A DNA stretch of 52,906 nucleotides, taken from positions 1 through 52,906 of the forward strand of contig JBBDHW010000042.1 in the NCBI GenBank assembly GCA_040880805.1, written 5' to 3'. Of the stretch, positions 1,170 through 27,251 are shown one piece after another (position 1 is the stretch's first letter; every line of letters starts with the position of its first letter). A program made the translations under genes and the position numbers. The notes below the pieces were generated by a model. The model was not told where the DNA came from. It worked only from the letters and a program-made list of their open reading frames with translations, and searched no databases. This DNA is from Acidimicrobiia bacterium. Its GTDB lineage: Bacteria; Actinomycetota; Acidimicrobiia; IMCC26256; DASPTH01.

Positions 1170-1179
1170 GATCAACCGG

Positions 1180-2535
1180 ATGGTGCGTCTCCGGGCAGCG
1201 TTTCTCGTGGTCGTGCTCATCATGTCGGTGCTCGCGGCCATTCCCGTTGCGCGCGCGGCAACCAATACGACGACACCGGGGTACCAGAGTGTGTTGACCG
1301 GCGCCATCGCCGAGCTCCAGCGCTATTGGGCCCGCGAGTATCCCGATCTCTACGGCGAGCGGTACCAGCCGATTCCTCGCGCGCGCATCATCGCGGCGCG
1401 ACCCGGCGTGAAGATGCCGGCGTGCCAGGGTCACAAGACGGTCTACGCGGACGTCAGGGGGAACGCGTTCTATTGCTTGGAGAGCAACTTCATCGCCTAC
1501 GACGATGTGCAGCTCATGCCGGATCTTGCCGACACGTTCGGAACGTTCTCGGTGGCGCTCGTGCTCGCGCACGAGTGGGGGCACGCAGTCCAGGACCGTG
1601 CCGGCAACGGCGACCAGCAGACCGTCTACATGGAGCAGCAGGCGGACTGTTTCGCGGGTGCGTTCCTCCACCACGTCGCGGAGAACGGCAACTCGTTGAC
1701 GCTCAAACTTGGCGACCTCGAGGCGTCACTGGGCGCGATGCTCATGCTGCGCGACGCGCCCGGACGGTCGGCGGCGGACCCGTCGGCGCACGGCAGCGCC
1801 TTCGACCGGATCGGCGCGTTCCAGGACGGCTTCGAATCGGGCGCCGAGAAGTGTGCGACGTACTTCGACGATCCGCCGGTCCTCGTGGAGATCCCGTTCT
1901 CGAGCGAGGAAGAGGCGCAGAGCCAGGGCGAGGTCAGCGCCGAAGACGTGATCCCTCTCGCGGTGAAGCTGCTGAACGCCTTCTACTCGCAGGTCGAACC
2001 GAACTACGAACCACTCTCACTCCGCGACATCACGTCGTTCGACAGCTCGAAGCGCAGCACCATCCCGAAGTGCGGCCGGACCACGCTCACGCTCAAGCAG
2101 GTGCAGAACCGCGTCTTCTATTGCATCGACGATGGCTACATCGCGTTCGACGACCCATTCCTGCAGCGCATCTACGACGAGATCGGCGACTTCGGCGTGG
2201 CGTCACTCATCGCGAACCCGTGGGCTACGTACGTGCAGACCATCCAGGACATCCCCGGCGTGGCCGGCAACGGTCTCGAAGTGGTCTTCCAATCCGACTG
2301 TTACAGCGGGGGCTGGGCCGCTGCGTTGTTCAACGGTGCCTTGGAGGGTGGGAGCCTGTCGCCCGGTGACCTCGACGAGTTCGTGGAGGCCTTCCTCGTG
2401 TACAGCCGCGCCCGCGGCGTGGAGGCGAACGTGCCGATCACGTTCTTGCGGGTGGAGTTCTTCCGAGTCGGCTTCCTCGAGGGCTACAACGCCTGCAACT
2501 ACGACGACATCGCCGCCGCCGTTGCCAACATCTGA
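1180..2535 (+). CDS. Secreted neutral zinc metallopeptidase-like protein with an inactive second copy
   Basis: The protein has 451 residues from the ATG at 1180, which opens a clear signal peptide (basic MVRLR, hydrophobic core, AAIPVARA cleavage region); longer in-frame starts lie inside the previous gene and would bury it. Residues about 30-230 resemble the neutral zinc metallopeptidase family, with HEWGH at about 131-135 and a downstream EQQADC segment as candidate third-ligand region. Residues about 260-440 repeat the same layout (FYC, then IAFDD, then a helix, then QSDCYSG), but the catalytic helix reads IANPWATYVQ, losing both His and the Glu. The second half is therefore expected to be non-catalytic, perhaps a regulatory or binding copy. 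It acts outside the membrane. Confidence 0.8.
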   Translation: MVRLRAAFLVVVLIMSVLAAIPVARAATNTTTPGYQSVLTGAIAELQRYWAREYPDLYGERYQPIPRARIIAARPGVKMPACQGHKTVYADVRGNAFYCLESNFIAYDDVQLMPDLADTFGTFSVALVLAHEWGHAVQDRAGNGDQQTVYMEQQADCFAGAFLHHVAENGNSLTLKLGDLEASLGAMLMLRDAPGRSAADPSAHGSAFDRIGAFQDGFESGAEKCATYFDDPPVLVEIPFSSEEEAQSQGEVSAEDVIPLAVKLLNAFYSQVEPNYEPLSLRDITSFDSSKRSTIPKCGRTTLTLKQVQNRVFYCIDDGYIAFDDPFLQRIYDEIGDFGVASLIANPWATYVQTIQDIPGVAGNGLEVVFQSDCYSGGWAAALFNGALEGGSLSPGDLDEFVEAFLVYSRARGVEANVPITFLRVEFFRVGFLEGYNACNYDDIAAAVANI

Positions 2536-2560: not shown

Positions 2561-3274
2561 TCAGCTGCGCTGGGCGACGACCAGGAGGCGGCGGGACTCG
2601 AAGGTGAACGGCAGCAGCGAGAAGCCGCCGTACCACGCCTCGGGCACGAGACCGGCGGCGCGCAGCATGCGATCGACGTCGGTCGCGGTTTAGAGGCGAA
2701 CACGGTGGGTACGTTCGTGCCGGGATCCCTCCCGGTCCACCCATTGGTGCGTCACCGCGTTGACACCGGTGACGGCGTCGAACTCGCGCAATTGGGTGAC
2801 CAGCGTGCCGTCACTGAGCTCGGACCAGTCGCGCGACGCGTAACGAGCCACGAGGCTGTCGCGGTGGGCAAGCTCCAACACGAACCGACCACCGGGGCGT
2901 AGCGCATCGGCAATCGATTGCAACGCTCGCTGGTTCTCTTCGTCGTCGTAGTACCCCCACGCCGTCAACAGGTTGAGGGCCACATCGAACGCGCGCTCGT
3001 ACGGGATCTCGCGAATGTCACCGTGCACGAATTGGACGGAGACGCCGACGTCGTCGGCCGTTTCGGCCGCGCGCTCGAGGAAGAACTCGGACGAGTCCAG
3101 ACCGACGACGTCGTATCCCGCCGCGGCCAGGCGGACGGAGTGCCGCCCGACGCCACATGCCGCGTCGAGCACGCGGGCCGGTGGATCGGGGAGCAGCGTG
3201 CGCAGCGCGGCAACCTCGAAGTCGGTGTGCTCGTCGTCCGGGAAGCCGAAGAGCTCGGCCTCCAGCGCGCTCAT
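2561..3274 (-). pseudogene. Class I SAM-dependent methyltransferase interrupted by an in-frame TAA
   Basis: Reading down from the ATG at 3274, the protein has a Rossmann methyltransferase core: VLDAACGVGRHS (motif I), VVGLDSS (acidic loop), GDIREIPY, and LRPGGRFVLEL. At 2692-2690 a TAA stops it after 194 residues. The same frame then continues for 42 sense codons to a TGA at 2563-2561, reading TATDVDRMLRAAGLVPEAWY and then FTFESRRLLVVAQRS, exactly the expected C-terminal end of this family. The usual residue at the stop position is Tyr (RLYTATD), so a single TAC or TAT to TAA change explains it. The start is uncertain because the upstream codons look like a foreign remnant. Substrate unknown; probably non-functional or truncated unless the stop is read through or is an assembly error. 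Confidence 0.8.
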
Positions 3275-3378
3275 GGTCTCGCTGATACGCCGGGCCCGCG
3301 TCTCGGGCTTCTTCGCGGAGTCGCGGAGCCACGCGGTCCCGGCTCGACGACCGCGCGGAAGCGCTTGGTGGTTGGCAT
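3259..3378 (-). pseudogene. Remnant of a DUF1905/YdeI-like gene (fused ends, middle deleted)
   Basis: From the ATG at 3378 a 35-codon frame reads MPTTKRFRAVVEPGPRG and then loses similarity before its TGA at 3271. Another frame of the same stretch reads TAWLRDSAKKPETRARRISE. From memory, the first piece resembles the beginning and the second the end of DUF1905/YdeI-type proteins of about 150 residues (which end with a W-I-x-x-AKKPETRARRI pattern). The simplest reading is an internal deletion that joined the two ends out of frame. It lies 9 bases after the crotonase stop and its TGA overlaps the methyltransferase ATG. Family assignment is from recalled motifs only. Confidence 0.5.
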
Positions 3379-3387
3379 GGTGGATGT

Positions 3388-4230
3388 CTACTTGGCCGCG
3401 CGCTCTTCCGCGGTGCGGTAGTCGCCGAACCGTTCGTCGCGCTTCTGCAGCGCGTGGGTGAGCCCCTCGGCGCGGTCTGCCATGAACGCCTGGAACGTGG
3501 CGGTCCGCGTGGCCTGGGTGCAGAGGGGGATGCCCGCCTTGATCGAGTCGCGGAAGCCCATGATCTCCATGGCCTGGTGCACGGTGCGCTTGTTGATCTG
3601 CGCGATGTCGGTGGGGATGTTGGCAACGCGCGATGCCATCTCGAGTGTGCGCTCCTCGAGCTCCGCTGCCGGGAACGCGCGCGTCGCGTAGCCGCATTCG
3701 ACCGCTTCGACGCCGCTCAGCGGGTCGCCCGTGAGCATCATCTCCATGCCCTTGCGCATGCCACACATCCACGCGTGGTACTGCATGTCGGGTGTGCCGA
3801 AGCGCACGGCGGGATACCCGATCTTTGCGTCCTCGGCCACGTACACGAGGTCGCAGCCGGTCGCGAGCTCGCTCCCGCCCGCGAGGCAGTAGCTGTGCAC
3901 TTGGGCGATGACGGGCTTGGCGAGGTCCCAGATGCTCGTCCAGTAGCCGGTGACCTGGCGCTGGAACTGACCTTCACCCGAGGTGAACCAGTCGGCGGGC
4001 GCGCCGGCATCGGGCGGGTCGCCGCCGAGGTCGTAGCCGGCCGAGAAGCACTTGCCCGCGCCGCGGATGATCGACACCCGCACGTCGGGGTCGGCGTCGG
4101 CCTCGCGCAGCGCAAGGATGATCTCGCGGCGCAGAGGCGTGTTGAGCGCGTTGCGCTTCTCGGGGCGGTTCAGTGTGATTCGCCGCACCATCGGCGCGGG
4201 ATCGTCGACCAGGATCACGGAGTAGCTCAC
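3388..4230 (-). CDS. Enoyl-CoA hydratase/isomerase (crotonase) family protein
   Basis: This 280-residue protein starts at GTG 4230, whose GTGA overlaps the stop of the upstream synthetase gene. Crotonase hallmarks are visible: ITLNRPEKRNAL near the N-terminus, the first oxyanion segment GKCFSAGYDL, and CLAGGSELATGCDLVY, which keeps the first catalytic Glu. Where classical hydratases have a second Glu (FGQPEI-type), this protein reads IGYPAVRFG, so that Glu is replaced by Ala. It may therefore run a crotonase reaction other than plain 2-enoyl-CoA hydration. Position directly after an acyl-CoA synthetase suggests it acts on the CoA ester that enzyme makes. Confidence 0.85.
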   Translation of the reverse strand: MSYSVILVDDPAPMVRRITLNRPEKRNALNTPLRREIILALREADADPDVRVSIIRGAGKCFSAGYDLGGDPPDAGAPADWFTSGEGQFQRQVTGYWTSIWDLAKPVIAQVHSYCLAGGSELATGCDLVYVAEDAKIGYPAVRFGTPDMQYHAWMCGMRKGMEMMLTGDPLSGVEAVECGYATRAFPAAELEERTLEMASRVANIPTDIAQINKRTVHQAMEIMGFRDSIKAGIPLCTQATRTATFQAFMADRAEGLTHALQKRDERFGDYRTAEERAAK

Positions 4231-5930
4231 GTCGCCTCCAGTACATGGCTGCGGCCGGCGGCCGCGAACTGTTCCCGCAACGCCGAGGCGTCGTCGGGTG
4301 TGAACGGAACGTACGCCAGCTCGCGGCCCGGGCGCCACCAGATCGGATCGCCGACGGACCAGCGTTCGTGCACGAGTTGACGCTTGAGGATCTTGTTGGT
4401 CTCGGTGACGGGCAGTCGCCCGACGATCCGTACGAACGTGGGCGCCCACTTGGTGCCGAGGTCGTGCTGCTCTGCGAGGAAGTCGACGAACGCGTCCGGA
4501 TCGAAGGCCACACCCGGAGCGAGTTGGATCGCGGCCATCACCCGATCCCCGACTTCGGCGTCGGGCACGCCGTAGACCGCGGGGAGGACTACGGGCTCCC
4601 AACGCAGCAGGATGCGCTCGACCGGTGCCGCCGCGAAGTTCTCGCCGTCGACGCGGATCCAGTCGGCGGTGCGCCCGGCGAAGTAGAAGAAGCCCTCGTC
4701 GTCGCGGTAGGCGAGGTCGCCGGTCCAGTAGGCGCCGTCTCGGTACCGCTCGCGCATCGCCTCCGCGTTCTTCCAGTAGCCCTCGAATCCCTGCGCGGCG
4801 AGGTTGACGATCTCGCCCGTTGCCTCCTCCGCGTTGAGCAGCCTGCCGTTCGTGTCGAAGCGCGCGGGCGGGCACTCCTCGCCCGTCTCCGGGTTGATCA
4901 CCTTGACCGCGTCGGAGCCCTTCCCGAGCGAGCCGACCGGCGTGCCGGGGACGCGGCTGATCGTCGCGCCGGTCTCGGTCTGCCCGTATCCGTCGGTGAG
5001 CGGGCAGGCGAAGCGGGCCTCGAAGCGGCGCATGTCGGCTTCGTTCCCCTCGTTGCCAAACCCGCGAACCAGCGGGTTGTCCGCGTCGTCGGTGTGCTCG
5101 GGCGTGTCGAGGATGTACGCGAGCGGCTTGCCGACGTAGTTGAAGTAGGTGGCGCCGTACTTGCGGACATCGGAAAGGAACGCGGAAGCGGAGAAGCGCC
5201 GCCGCAGCGCCATGGCTGCGCCCGCGACGATCGTCGGCGACCAGGCGGTGAACAGCGCGTTGGAGTGGAACAGCGGCATCGATGCGTAGGTGACATCGGT
5301 GGGCTGGAGTTTCAGCGTGGTCGCCATGGTGGTGGCGATGCGATCGAGTCGCTCTTGCGAGCACACGACCGCCTTCGGCGCGCCAGTCGTGCCCGATGTG
5401 AACAGCAGGAAGATCTGGTCTGACGGCTTCACCGTGGCGGTCGGTAGGGGAGCGTCGGTGAACGGCTCGACGACATCGTCGTACGACGGCTCGTCGATGA
5501 CGAGCACGCGTCCGTCGGCGGCGCCGAGGTCGAGACCGTCGAGCAACTCGAGGTAGCGCGTCTCGGTAACGATGAGCTGGCATTCGGTGTGGTCGATGTC
5601 GCGTTCGAGACCCGCGCCGCGGCGCGTGGGGTTGATGCCGACAATGGTTGCGCCGCACATCGCGGCCGCACCCGACCACATCGAGAAGTCGGGCACGTTG
5701 TCGAGCATCAGACCGATGTGCGGCGCACCGTCGATCCGCATCGCAACGAAGAGCGCGGCGCGCGCGGAGCACGCGCGCACCCATTCGGCGTAGGTCCAGG
5801 ACTCGTCCTCGAAGAGGAGGGCGACGTTGGGATCGCCCGCGCGCGCCTTGACGTGGTCGGCGAAGACCCCCTTCATGGGTCGCTCGCTACTCGGCGGGAT
5901 ACCCGCCTCGCTCGCGCTCGCTCCCGCCAT
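4227..5930 (-). CDS. AMP-dependent acyl-CoA synthetase (fatty-acid-CoA ligase family)
   Basis: This 567-residue protein belongs to the ANL adenylating superfamily. It shows the phosphate-binding loop LFTSGTTGAPKAV (about residue 175), the DGYGQTETGA motif (about 313), WTGDLAYRDDEGFFYFAGR with the hinge Asp region (about 403), and the C-terminal ETNKILKRQL containing the adenylation lysine (about 513). It should activate a carboxylic acid with ATP to an acyl-AMP and then an acyl-CoA; chain type is unknown. The ATG at 5930 directly follows the TAG of the upstream deacylase gene with no gap; a second Met (MKGVFADHV) 18 codons in is an alternative start. It sits between a deacylase and a crotonase in one operon. 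Confidence 0.92.
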   Translation of the reverse strand: MAGASASEAGIPPSSERPMKGVFADHVKARAGDPNVALLFEDESWTYAEWVRACSARAALFVAMRIDGAPHIGLMLDNVPDFSMWSGAAAMCGATIVGINPTRRGAGLERDIDHTECQLIVTETRYLELLDGLDLGAADGRVLVIDEPSYDDVVEPFTDAPLPTATVKPSDQIFLLFTSGTTGAPKAVVCSQERLDRIATTMATTLKLQPTDVTYASMPLFHSNALFTAWSPTIVAGAAMALRRRFSASAFLSDVRKYGATYFNYVGKPLAYILDTPEHTDDADNPLVRGFGNEGNEADMRRFEARFACPLTDGYGQTETGATISRVPGTPVGSLGKGSDAVKVINPETGEECPPARFDTNGRLLNAEEATGEIVNLAAQGFEGYWKNAEAMRERYRDGAYWTGDLAYRDDEGFFYFAGRTADWIRVDGENFAAAPVERILLRWEPVVLPAVYGVPDAEVGDRVMAAIQLAPGVAFDPDAFVDFLAEQHDLGTKWAPTFVRIVGRLPVTETNKILKRQLVHERWSVGDPIWWRPGRELAYVPFTPDDASALREQFAAAGRSHVLEAT

Positions 5931-25350: not shown

Positions 25351-25899
25351 TCAGCCGAGAGGCTGGTGGATCGTCTGCGCGGCGCGCGGGTCGTCGGCAC
25401 CTACCAGCCGTTCGAGCTCGCGGAGCGCGTCGGCCGTGTCGAAACCGTCGACCGTGGCGAGCACCTGCTCGATGTCGAGCCAGTCCTTTGGACGGTTGAA
25501 GACTGCCTTGCAGACGACGAGATGTTCGGCGCCGATGATCGGGATCGTGTCAGGACCGAATGGCACTGGAGATGCTTGCGCACGCATTGCGTCGTGGAGC
25601 GCGTCGTAGGCGAAGAAGAGGTCGATCGGGGTGCGGCCCCAGCGACAGCGGACCTGCCCGTCACGTGCGAACGTTGTTCCGTCGAGCGGTGAGGTGTCGA
25701 CGCCGAGCGGACCGAGCACGGCCGCGATCTCGCCCGCGTGCTCGGCAGTGACGAACACGTTGAGGTCGACGTCGACCGTGGTGCGCGGCTCCGCGTAGTA
25801 CGCAAGGGCGAGCGCGCCCCCGAACGCGTGTGCGATGCCCGCGTGCTCGAGCGCGCGGTGGAGCGCCACGACCTTGTCGGGAAGCGACGGTTCCTTCAT
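25351..25899 (-). CDS. Nucleotidyltransferase-fold protein (AbiEii/MNT-like), second gene of a two-gene module
   Basis: This 182-residue protein has the minimal nucleotidyltransferase pattern HAFGGALALAYYAEPRTTVDVDLNVFV: a Gly-Gly helix start followed by the metal-binding DxD, then TPIDLFFAYDALHD with a third acidic residue and HLVVCKAVFNRPKDWLDIEQV, where KxxxxRxKDxxD matches the AbiEii/DUF1814-type nucleotidyltransferases. Members act as toxins modifying tRNA or as other NMP-transferases. Its ATG at 25899 overlaps the upstream TGA by four bases, so it is translationally coupled to the small protein before it. Toxin activity is an inference from organisation. Confidence 0.75.
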   Translation of the reverse strand: MKEPSLPDKVVALHRALEHAGIAHAFGGALALAYYAEPRTTVDVDLNVFVTAEHAGEIAAVLGPLGVDTSPLDGTTFARDGQVRCRWGRTPIDLFFAYDALHDAMRAQASPVPFGPDTIPIIGAEHLVVCKAVFNRPKDWLDIEQVLATVDGFDTADALRELERLVGADDPRAAQTIHQPLG

Positions 25900-26354
25900 A
25901 GCCTTCTGCTACTGGCGCGGCGCGGAACGGGTAACCGGTCAGCGAGCAGCAGCAGATCGCGCAAGGCCTCGCCGCGTTCCTCGAGCGTTGCACCGCTCCA
26001 GGCCGCAGCGGCGCGCACGGAGTCGGACACTTCGACCTCGGGTTCGACGGCTTCCGAGAGCGCGGCGGCGAGCGCCGGGGACGGGCGATGACCCACCCGG
26101 AGCTCGGCGAGCAGGGCGCGCGCCGCGATGTCGACGGGAGACGCGCCGACGCGCACCGGTGCACCGGCACGCCGCGCCGAGTGGACGAGCGCGTGCACGT
26201 CGACGAGCACCTCGGCGCGTTCGATCACGTGCGCGACGACCGCGTCGTCGAGGGTGGTGAACGTGGCGAGCGTGCGGGCGCGTGGGCCACGTGGGGTCGC
26301 GCGAGACTCCCGCACCTCGAACCGCCCCCCCGGCCGCCCGACGACGAACGCCAT
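25896..26354 (-). CDS. Small partner protein of the nucleotidyltransferase (putative antitoxin/regulator)
   Basis: The start is ATG 26354 (MAFVVGRPGGRFEVRES), giving 152 residues; a GTG six codons upstream lies inside the palindrome and is less likely. I do not recognise a named domain. The N-terminus looks like a short beta-sheet unit (GRFEVRES, then RARTLATFTTLDDAVVAHVIERA), followed by Ala/Arg-rich helices (about residues 60-145). Placement directly behind a strong palindrome and in ATGA overlap with a nucleotidyltransferase gene resembles toxin-antitoxin or autoregulated pairs, so an antitoxin or repressor role is the best guess. Confidence 0.55.
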   Translation of the reverse strand: MAFVVGRPGGRFEVRESRATPRGPRARTLATFTTLDDAVVAHVIERAEVLVDVHALVHSARRAGAPVRVGASPVDIAARALLAELRVGHRPSPALAAALSEAVEPEVEVSDSVRAAAAWSGATLEERGEALRDLLLLADRLPVPRRASSRRL

Positions 26355-26376
26355 AGTGGGTAGCTTACCCACTATG
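26352..26376. promoter_or_regulatory. 25-base palindrome covering the start codon of the two-gene module
   Basis: Perfect 11-base arms, CATAGTGGGTA (26352-26362) and TACCCACTATG (26366-26376), flank the centre GCT. The start codon of the gene ending at 25896 (ATG, 26354-26352) lies within one arm. It can act as an operator for autoregulation or, as RNA, hide the start codon in a hairpin. There is no T-run, so a terminator for the upstream gene is unlikely. Confidence 0.75.
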
Positions 26377-26390
26377 CAAGCGGTTTGCTG

Positions 26391-27200
26391 TTACCAGAGC
26401 TGGTCGGTGTAGGTATCGGTGCCCCAGACGGTGTTGATGAACGGCCCGGTCCACACGTGGGTAGCGAGACCGCTCTCCTCGATGGCGTCGCCGATGGTGG
26501 CGTAGCCGTCGGCCCAGTCCTCGGCGGGGTCGTGGTCGAGGAAGTGGAGCTGCAGGAAGCGATCGGGGCCGGCGGCGGGGGCCGCCACATCGGCGGGCCG
26601 GTCGTCGAGCAGCGGCAGCGTCGTCGAGCTCGAGACCAGTTCGGGTCCCCACGGTCGCGACATCGCATCCGGCAGGTACGTCTCCTGGAACCACGCGTCG
26701 ACCTCGTCGTGCGTGTGCCCAACCTTGACGTCGCCGGCGACGACGACGAGCCCGGGGTACTCGTGATCGAGCGCGAGCTCGATCGTGCAGCCGTTCGGAT
26801 CGCGTCGCTTGCTCCACCGGTTCTCGTACAGCAGCGTGTGTATGTGCTGGCGCTCTTCGAACATGCGTCCGTTTGCGTGCAGCCAGTTCACCTGGTCGAC
26901 TGCCCAACGGTTCCACTCGTCGTGGTGGCCTTCGAGCACCCAGTAGATCGCGAGGTACGACCCGGTGAGCGGGTTGGGCGTCATGTCGGTCTCGGCCGGG
27001 TAGCGGAGGTCCTTCAGGCCACGGGTGGCGACGAAGCGATCGCCGGCGAACTGCCACGGGCCGATCATGCAGCCCGCGTAGAAGTGGTCGTGCTCGTACC
27101 ACCGGTTGTACTCGAGCTCGTGACCGCGCGTGGGCTCGACCATCGTGAAGAGCAGCGTGCCGAGCTTGATCGGGTACTCGCGCTTGGCCGGGAGCGGCAT
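26391..27200 (-). CDS. Unknown protein, possible EthD/dimeric alpha-beta barrel-like
   Basis: This 269-residue protein starts at ATG 27200 with a GAGGAGG ribosome site. I cannot assign a family firmly. Segments such as HELEYNRWYEHDHFYAGCM and VDAWFQETYLPDAM look like the W-x-x-x-H helices of EthD-type dimeric alpha-beta barrels, repeated in the two halves (about residues 10-130 and 140-260). No signal peptide or membrane span is present. It is divergent from the VOC gene at 27252, with 51 bases between starts, which suggests shared regulation. The downstream gene begins 36 bases after its stop, at the palindrome. Confidence 0.6.
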   Translation of the reverse strand: MPLPAKREYPIKLGTLLFTMVEPTRGHELEYNRWYEHDHFYAGCMIGPWQFAGDRFVATRGLKDLRYPAETDMTPNPLTGSYLAIYWVLEGHHDEWNRWAVDQVNWLHANGRMFEERQHIHTLLYENRWSKRRDPNGCTIELALDHEYPGLVVVAGDVKVGHTHDEVDAWFQETYLPDAMSRPWGPELVSSSTTLPLLDDRPADVAAPAAGPDRFLQLHFLDHDPAEDWADGYATIGDAIEESGLATHVWTGPFINTVWGTDTYTDQLW

Positions 27201-27251
27201 GACAGACCTCCTCGCGTCCGGTGCGGGCGCCGACGCTACTCTCCCGTCTGA

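Follow-up and report, generated by a model that had tools for sequence, protein, structure and literature searches.

The class I SAM methyltransferases of the Methyltransf_25 family (PF13649) are one of the two protein families to which the locus described here can be compared, and they have in common with its methyltransferase gene the SAM-binding core, the overall fold and the ending, whereas the gene lacks the N-terminal block of the family and meets a TAA codon 42 codons before its end. The best solved-structure match, by sequence as well as by fold, is 9ri2, the bacillithiol methyltransferase NmbA of Chlorobaculum tepidum (27% identity). The other family is that of the YdeI/OmpD-associated proteins, composed of a DUF1905 (PF08922) and an OmdA (PF13376) domain. 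The locus retains the C-terminal region of these proteins, AKKPETRARRI, and a matching start peptide, while about 325 central bases are gone, the two pieces stand in different frames and DUF1905 is not matched. Ordinary bacterial pseudogenes arise by nonsense mutation and deletion, and the locus resembles them: parts are missing, there is a nonsense codon, the neighbours are uninterrupted and the genome has a similar gene at another place; nothing sets it apart from them. The stretch analysed, called here the window, is a contig of 52,906 nucleotides from an Acidimicrobiia bacterium, whose draft genome of 3.49 Mb in 69 contigs is 95.4% complete. Its positions 2561-3378, on the minus strand, are read as two gene remnants left by decay, one of a YdeI-type gene and one of a methyltransferase gene, with a probability of roughly 0.7. 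No account of this locus was found in those parts of the literature that the search made available.

The methyltransferase frame and its in-frame TAA

The preliminary description of the locus had proposed that a single TAA splits an otherwise intact methyltransferase frame, and the split itself was confirmed, with exact coordinates: the minus-strand frame runs from an ATG at 3274-3272 to a TAA at 2692-2690, continues for 42 sense codons (2689-2564) and closes with a TGA at 2563-2561, so that it is open over about 230 codons save for one stop. The part before the stop (2693-3274) is a class I SAM methyltransferase by its match to Methyltransf_25 (E 6.1e-21, 75.4 bits, cut-off 27), a score that places the SAM-binding core well above the Pfam threshold, and the SAM-binding half is complete there. 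The complete fold of the family is not contained in one open frame, the last helix and the last two strands lying after the TAA. The substrate was not named by the NCBIfam models, none of the 25 shown reaching its cut-off for the methyltransferase. The body that can be assigned to the family from the Methyltransf_25 match and the homologue alignment, without the N-terminal block, spans 2693-3256 on the minus strand.

The sequence after the stop (2561-2689, minus strand; 42 codons and the TGA) had been described as the expected ending of the family, and this was upheld by the alignment of the homologues, which runs through it, and by a structure model that places part of the core fold there. 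The model, predicted with the stop read as Y, has a mean pLDDT of 90.6, and in it the tail folds as core methyltransferase, with block means of 91-97, the elements after the stop being a helix (197-206) and two strands (209-215 and 229-236), that is, the last helix and the last two strands. The 42 codons total +19.2 bits under a codon-usage model trained on the window, which is above chance; by itself, the tail matches no Pfam model.

For the residue column at the stop, 60 loci were compared, of which 56 match at E 1e-5. Of the 56 matches, two belong to the window and 19 stop short of the column. The remaining 35 hold F in 20 cases, Y in seven, W and L in two each, A, D and T in one each, and a gap in one. 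All nine closest homologues, the comparison with which had been called for at the outset, run through the position of the TAA with sense codons, three of them with Phe (L039, L011, L012) and six with Tyr (L010, L040, L041, L042, L043, L044). A truncation common to the relatives was, therefore, rejected. The earlier statement that the family has Tyr here, one base change from the stop, is correct in that Tyr occurs; the column is, however, one of Phe or Tyr, and in the nearest relative, L039, Phe is encoded here by a codon that differs from TAA at two bases. A single change from Tyr is possible, and would need an ancestor with Tyr at this place.

Probable remnants of a YdeI-type gene in front of the methyltransferase

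The word "intact" could not be kept for the rest of the frame, because the N-terminal block is gone and the tail of an OmdA domain stands in its place, the YdeI gene being itself without its middle. The block is present in nine of nine aligned homologues and absent from the window; in seven of the nine it carries a Trp motif and in two (L011, L012) a different one, the compared frames running from stop to stop with putative start codons. In the structure model, residues 1-10 have a mean pLDDT of 52, versus 85-97 in the next nine ten-residue blocks. The peptide upstream of and across the presumed ATG, ...WLRDSAKKPETRARRISETMSALEA, forms the C-terminal end of an OmdA domain, and the ATG at 3272-3274 (minus strand), which had been taken for the start of the methyltransferase, lies inside this OmdA-derived piece.

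The piece, assigned by its Pfam match to 3257-3349 on the minus strand, is in frame with the methyltransferase. As a 36-residue peptide (3245-3352) it matches OmdA at E 1.4e-6 with 28.6 bits (cut-off 25.6), the match ending at 3257 and covering, in part, profile positions 30-59 of 60; a search of the genome with the same profile gave 28.8 bits over 3257-3373. In three of four ways of cutting the peptide the score is under the cut-off, with 24.5 and 25.2 bits for shorter pieces and 23.9 bits inside a 220-residue frame. The 24.5 bits are obtained without the last ten residues (MSALEAELFG), and since the score falls with their removal, the OmdA-derived part seems to continue beyond the ATG at 3274, ending at about 3257. 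The junction with the methyltransferase lies near 3257-3245, and its exact base is inferred.

The in-frame fusion, with its own ATG at 3274 and a complete SAM-binding half behind it, might be taken for a working, remodelled protein, in which the OmdA tail supplies a new N-terminus and the methyltransferase, now short, ends at the TAA, and the excess of third-position differences from L039 (see below) would agree with it. Such a protein would, however, be without the helix 197-206, the strands 209-215 and 229-236 and the N-terminal block, the fusion is found in none of the nine aligned homologues, and what follows the TAA can still be recognised, a remainder that a gene settled at the shorter length would have no need to retain; this makes a functional remodelling very unlikely. 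A two-piece enzyme, with the OmdA tail as its new N-terminus and with the tail translated separately from an ATG at 2668-2666 and reassembling with the body, is hardly conceivable. Under the reading as decay, the product up to the TAA, if translated, would most likely be non-functional, since it lacks the last helix, the last two strands and the N-terminal block.

The other end of the YdeI-type gene was located at 3328-3378 on the minus strand, where an ATG at 3378 opens MPTTKRFRAVVEPGPRG, in a frame that differs from everything downstream. The fragment with this 17-residue start piece (w-3274-3387) is not significant versus the full-length YdeI profile (E 22), and the start peptides of the window were, for this reason, ranked with a profile of 13 N-terminal columns from 24 YdeI-type relatives: among 3165 start-codon peptides, MPTTKRFRAVVEPGPRG is the first, with 19.3 bits, the next having 11.6. 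In the six-frame translation of the window, the full-length profile matches best the frame that holds the OmdA piece (E 0.0009). The joint between the two pieces falls within 3350-3316, the last bases of the first overlapping the range of the second.

The size of the missing middle was estimated from the spacing of two motifs, RF and AK..ETR, which stand 122-126 residues apart in nine relatives with a usable anchor and 47 bases apart in the window, so about 325 bases are gone between the pieces, a number that shifts the frame and corresponds to the different frames in which the pieces are observed. The C-terminal motif was matched by 47 rows; 34 of them had no N-terminal anchor and four (L092, L095 and L126, which are one gene, and L145) had a spurious one, and with these dropped the nine remained. 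No DUF1905 match was found ahead of the OmdA piece; within the genome, this domain is matched on contig C28 alone, the contig that carries the one other frame with both DUF1905 and OmdA, without a stop. With this second frame in the genome, loss of the YdeI gene at the locus would be tolerable.

Neighbouring genes, stop usage and relatives

The genes on both sides are uninterrupted. Upstream lies an enoyl-CoA hydratase/isomerase gene (ECH_1; 3388-4236, minus strand), one open coding frame by the coding scan and Pfam, whose region 3391-4224 is matched by relatives at 65% over nearly the full length. The convergent neighbour (1171-2535, plus strand), also one open coding frame, encodes a putative neutral zinc metallopeptidase (PF04228), for which the second half of the profile is matched. 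The metallopeptidase protein also re-matches its own gene (1171-2532) at 28% identity with its residues 39-228, which suggests, from the sequence, an internal repeat in that gene.

The codon-usage scan of the window delimited 47 coding segments, 44 of which are closed by a stop and score above 40 bits; in five of these, the methyltransferase among them, the stop is TAA, so that within the window TAA terminates four other strong coding segments. The in-frame continuation was scored after 45 of the 47 segments (all but the tail itself and the final segment, which is open-ended), and a run of at least 15 bits follows eight of the 45, the methyltransferase included. The other seven continuations are read as the next gene. 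In four of these pairs the two members carry different Pfam families, one pair, at 26393, matches no Pfam model, and two, 5970/4254 and 50423/51989, were judged from their gene-sized continuations. This control, which covers stop splits only, revealed no further gene of the window divided by a stop.

A second TAA split, at 26393-26391, was considered and set aside. In the region 25899-27203 (minus strand), a segment of 270 residues is followed by 164 open in-frame codons that show some coding signal; Pfam gave no match to either part or to the two read through as one, and the parts, read by eye as different proteins, are probably two genes. The segment 25354-25881 (minus strand), adjacent to a gene for a family 2 glycosyltransferase, has a weak match to an AbiEii nucleotidyltransferase (PF08843, E 4.8e-5, 23.8 bits, cut-off 22.5).

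The use of TAA in the window bears on the proposal, also made in the preliminary description, that the stop may be read through. Readthrough or recoding of the TAA to give a full-length enzyme would agree with a frame open on either side of it and with a recognisable tail. However, the codon is an ordinary stop for the four other strong segments, the RNA around it folds no better than its shuffles (z +1.37; 185 of 200 shuffles at least as good), the closest homologues have sense codons at the position, and the damage at the N-terminus would persist even if the stop were passed. Recoding was rejected on the stop usage in the window and the lack of an RNA structure at the stop; the proposal, left without support, is considered highly improbable.

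In the genomes searched, the locus shows no conservation. Among 61 genomes searched, the source included, the best methyltransferase identity outside the source is 38%, and none of the genomes returned shares the genus or family of the source, the nearest being of the same order, so that a whole copy of this locus was not seen; among 58 genomes of the order, a threshold of 1e-25 is passed by the source and a single other. The closest methyltransferase, at about 60% identity, is that of L039, an Actinomycetota draft genome from another collection, to which 111 of 187 residues are identical in the body and 19 of 42 in the tail. The differences at the first, second and third codon positions number 57, 45 and 106 in the 187 codons of the body and 17, 15 and 24 in the 42 codons of the tail, an excess at the third position that is clear in the former and weaker in the latter; it would mostly reflect the time before the decay. 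By eye, the frames upstream of the homologue in L039 (1243-2538) look like a transposase. The methyltransferase homologue of L044, an Armatimonadetes draft genome, also has an in-frame TAA, which lies at a different position (3148-3150), in the SAM-binding core.

The surroundings of the locus were compared through the ECH gene, which is matched in 21 other genomes, 19 of which gave a locus with about 1.5 kb of flank per side (less at contig ends). Neither a methyltransferase nor a YdeI gene lies within this flank in any of the 19; the ligase gene adjoining ECH is also not found there, and the neighbourhood is, therefore, not conserved. In plasmid records, the methyltransferase has 153 matches, every one at less than 60% identity and the best-ranked at 32%, and a YdeI protein has 13, also below 60% throughout; no mobile source for either gene was identified among these matches.

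Gene decay as the best explanation

Relative to whole homologues, the locus carries inactivating lesions, as pseudogenes do, and of the explanations first offered for the stop, recent decay is the one that holds up, there being damage at the front of the methyltransferase and in the YdeI gene besides the stop. A class I SAM methyltransferase gene would have stood after a small YdeI-type gene (DUF1905 and OmdA), both presumably whole and adjacent in the ancestor. One deletion, out of frame and about 325 bases long, would have removed the inside of the YdeI gene; another would have taken its end together with the front of the methyltransferase and joined in frame what was left; and a nonsense codon would have arisen 42 codons before the natural end of the methyltransferase. 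The sequence itself shows the pieces, their frames, the stop and the portions that are absent when homologues are compared. The order of these lesions, like the loss of function, is inferred. Three lesions within 818 bases, between two uninterrupted genes, make decay the best explanation. The frame being open but for one stop, the decay may be recent, or the body may still be under selection.

An error of assembly or sequencing, in which the stop, and perhaps the deletions as well, would be artefacts of the draft (a wrong consensus base, a joint between strains), is given some weight, the source being a draft genome in 69 contigs and L044, another draft genome and one of the nine closest homologues, also having an in-frame TAA. 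On general grounds, however, a wrong base together with two adjacent domain-sized gaps is unlikely, and the presence of three separate lesions within the 818 bases, with no further stop-split gene found in the window, leaves an artefact rather unlikely.

Read as decay, the locus shows that, where genes have decayed, the one stop that is seen at first can be a smaller lesion than any of the others present. Its meaning is mostly one of caution: a gene caller could list here a methyltransferase of 194 residues that starts at an ATG from the remnant of another gene.
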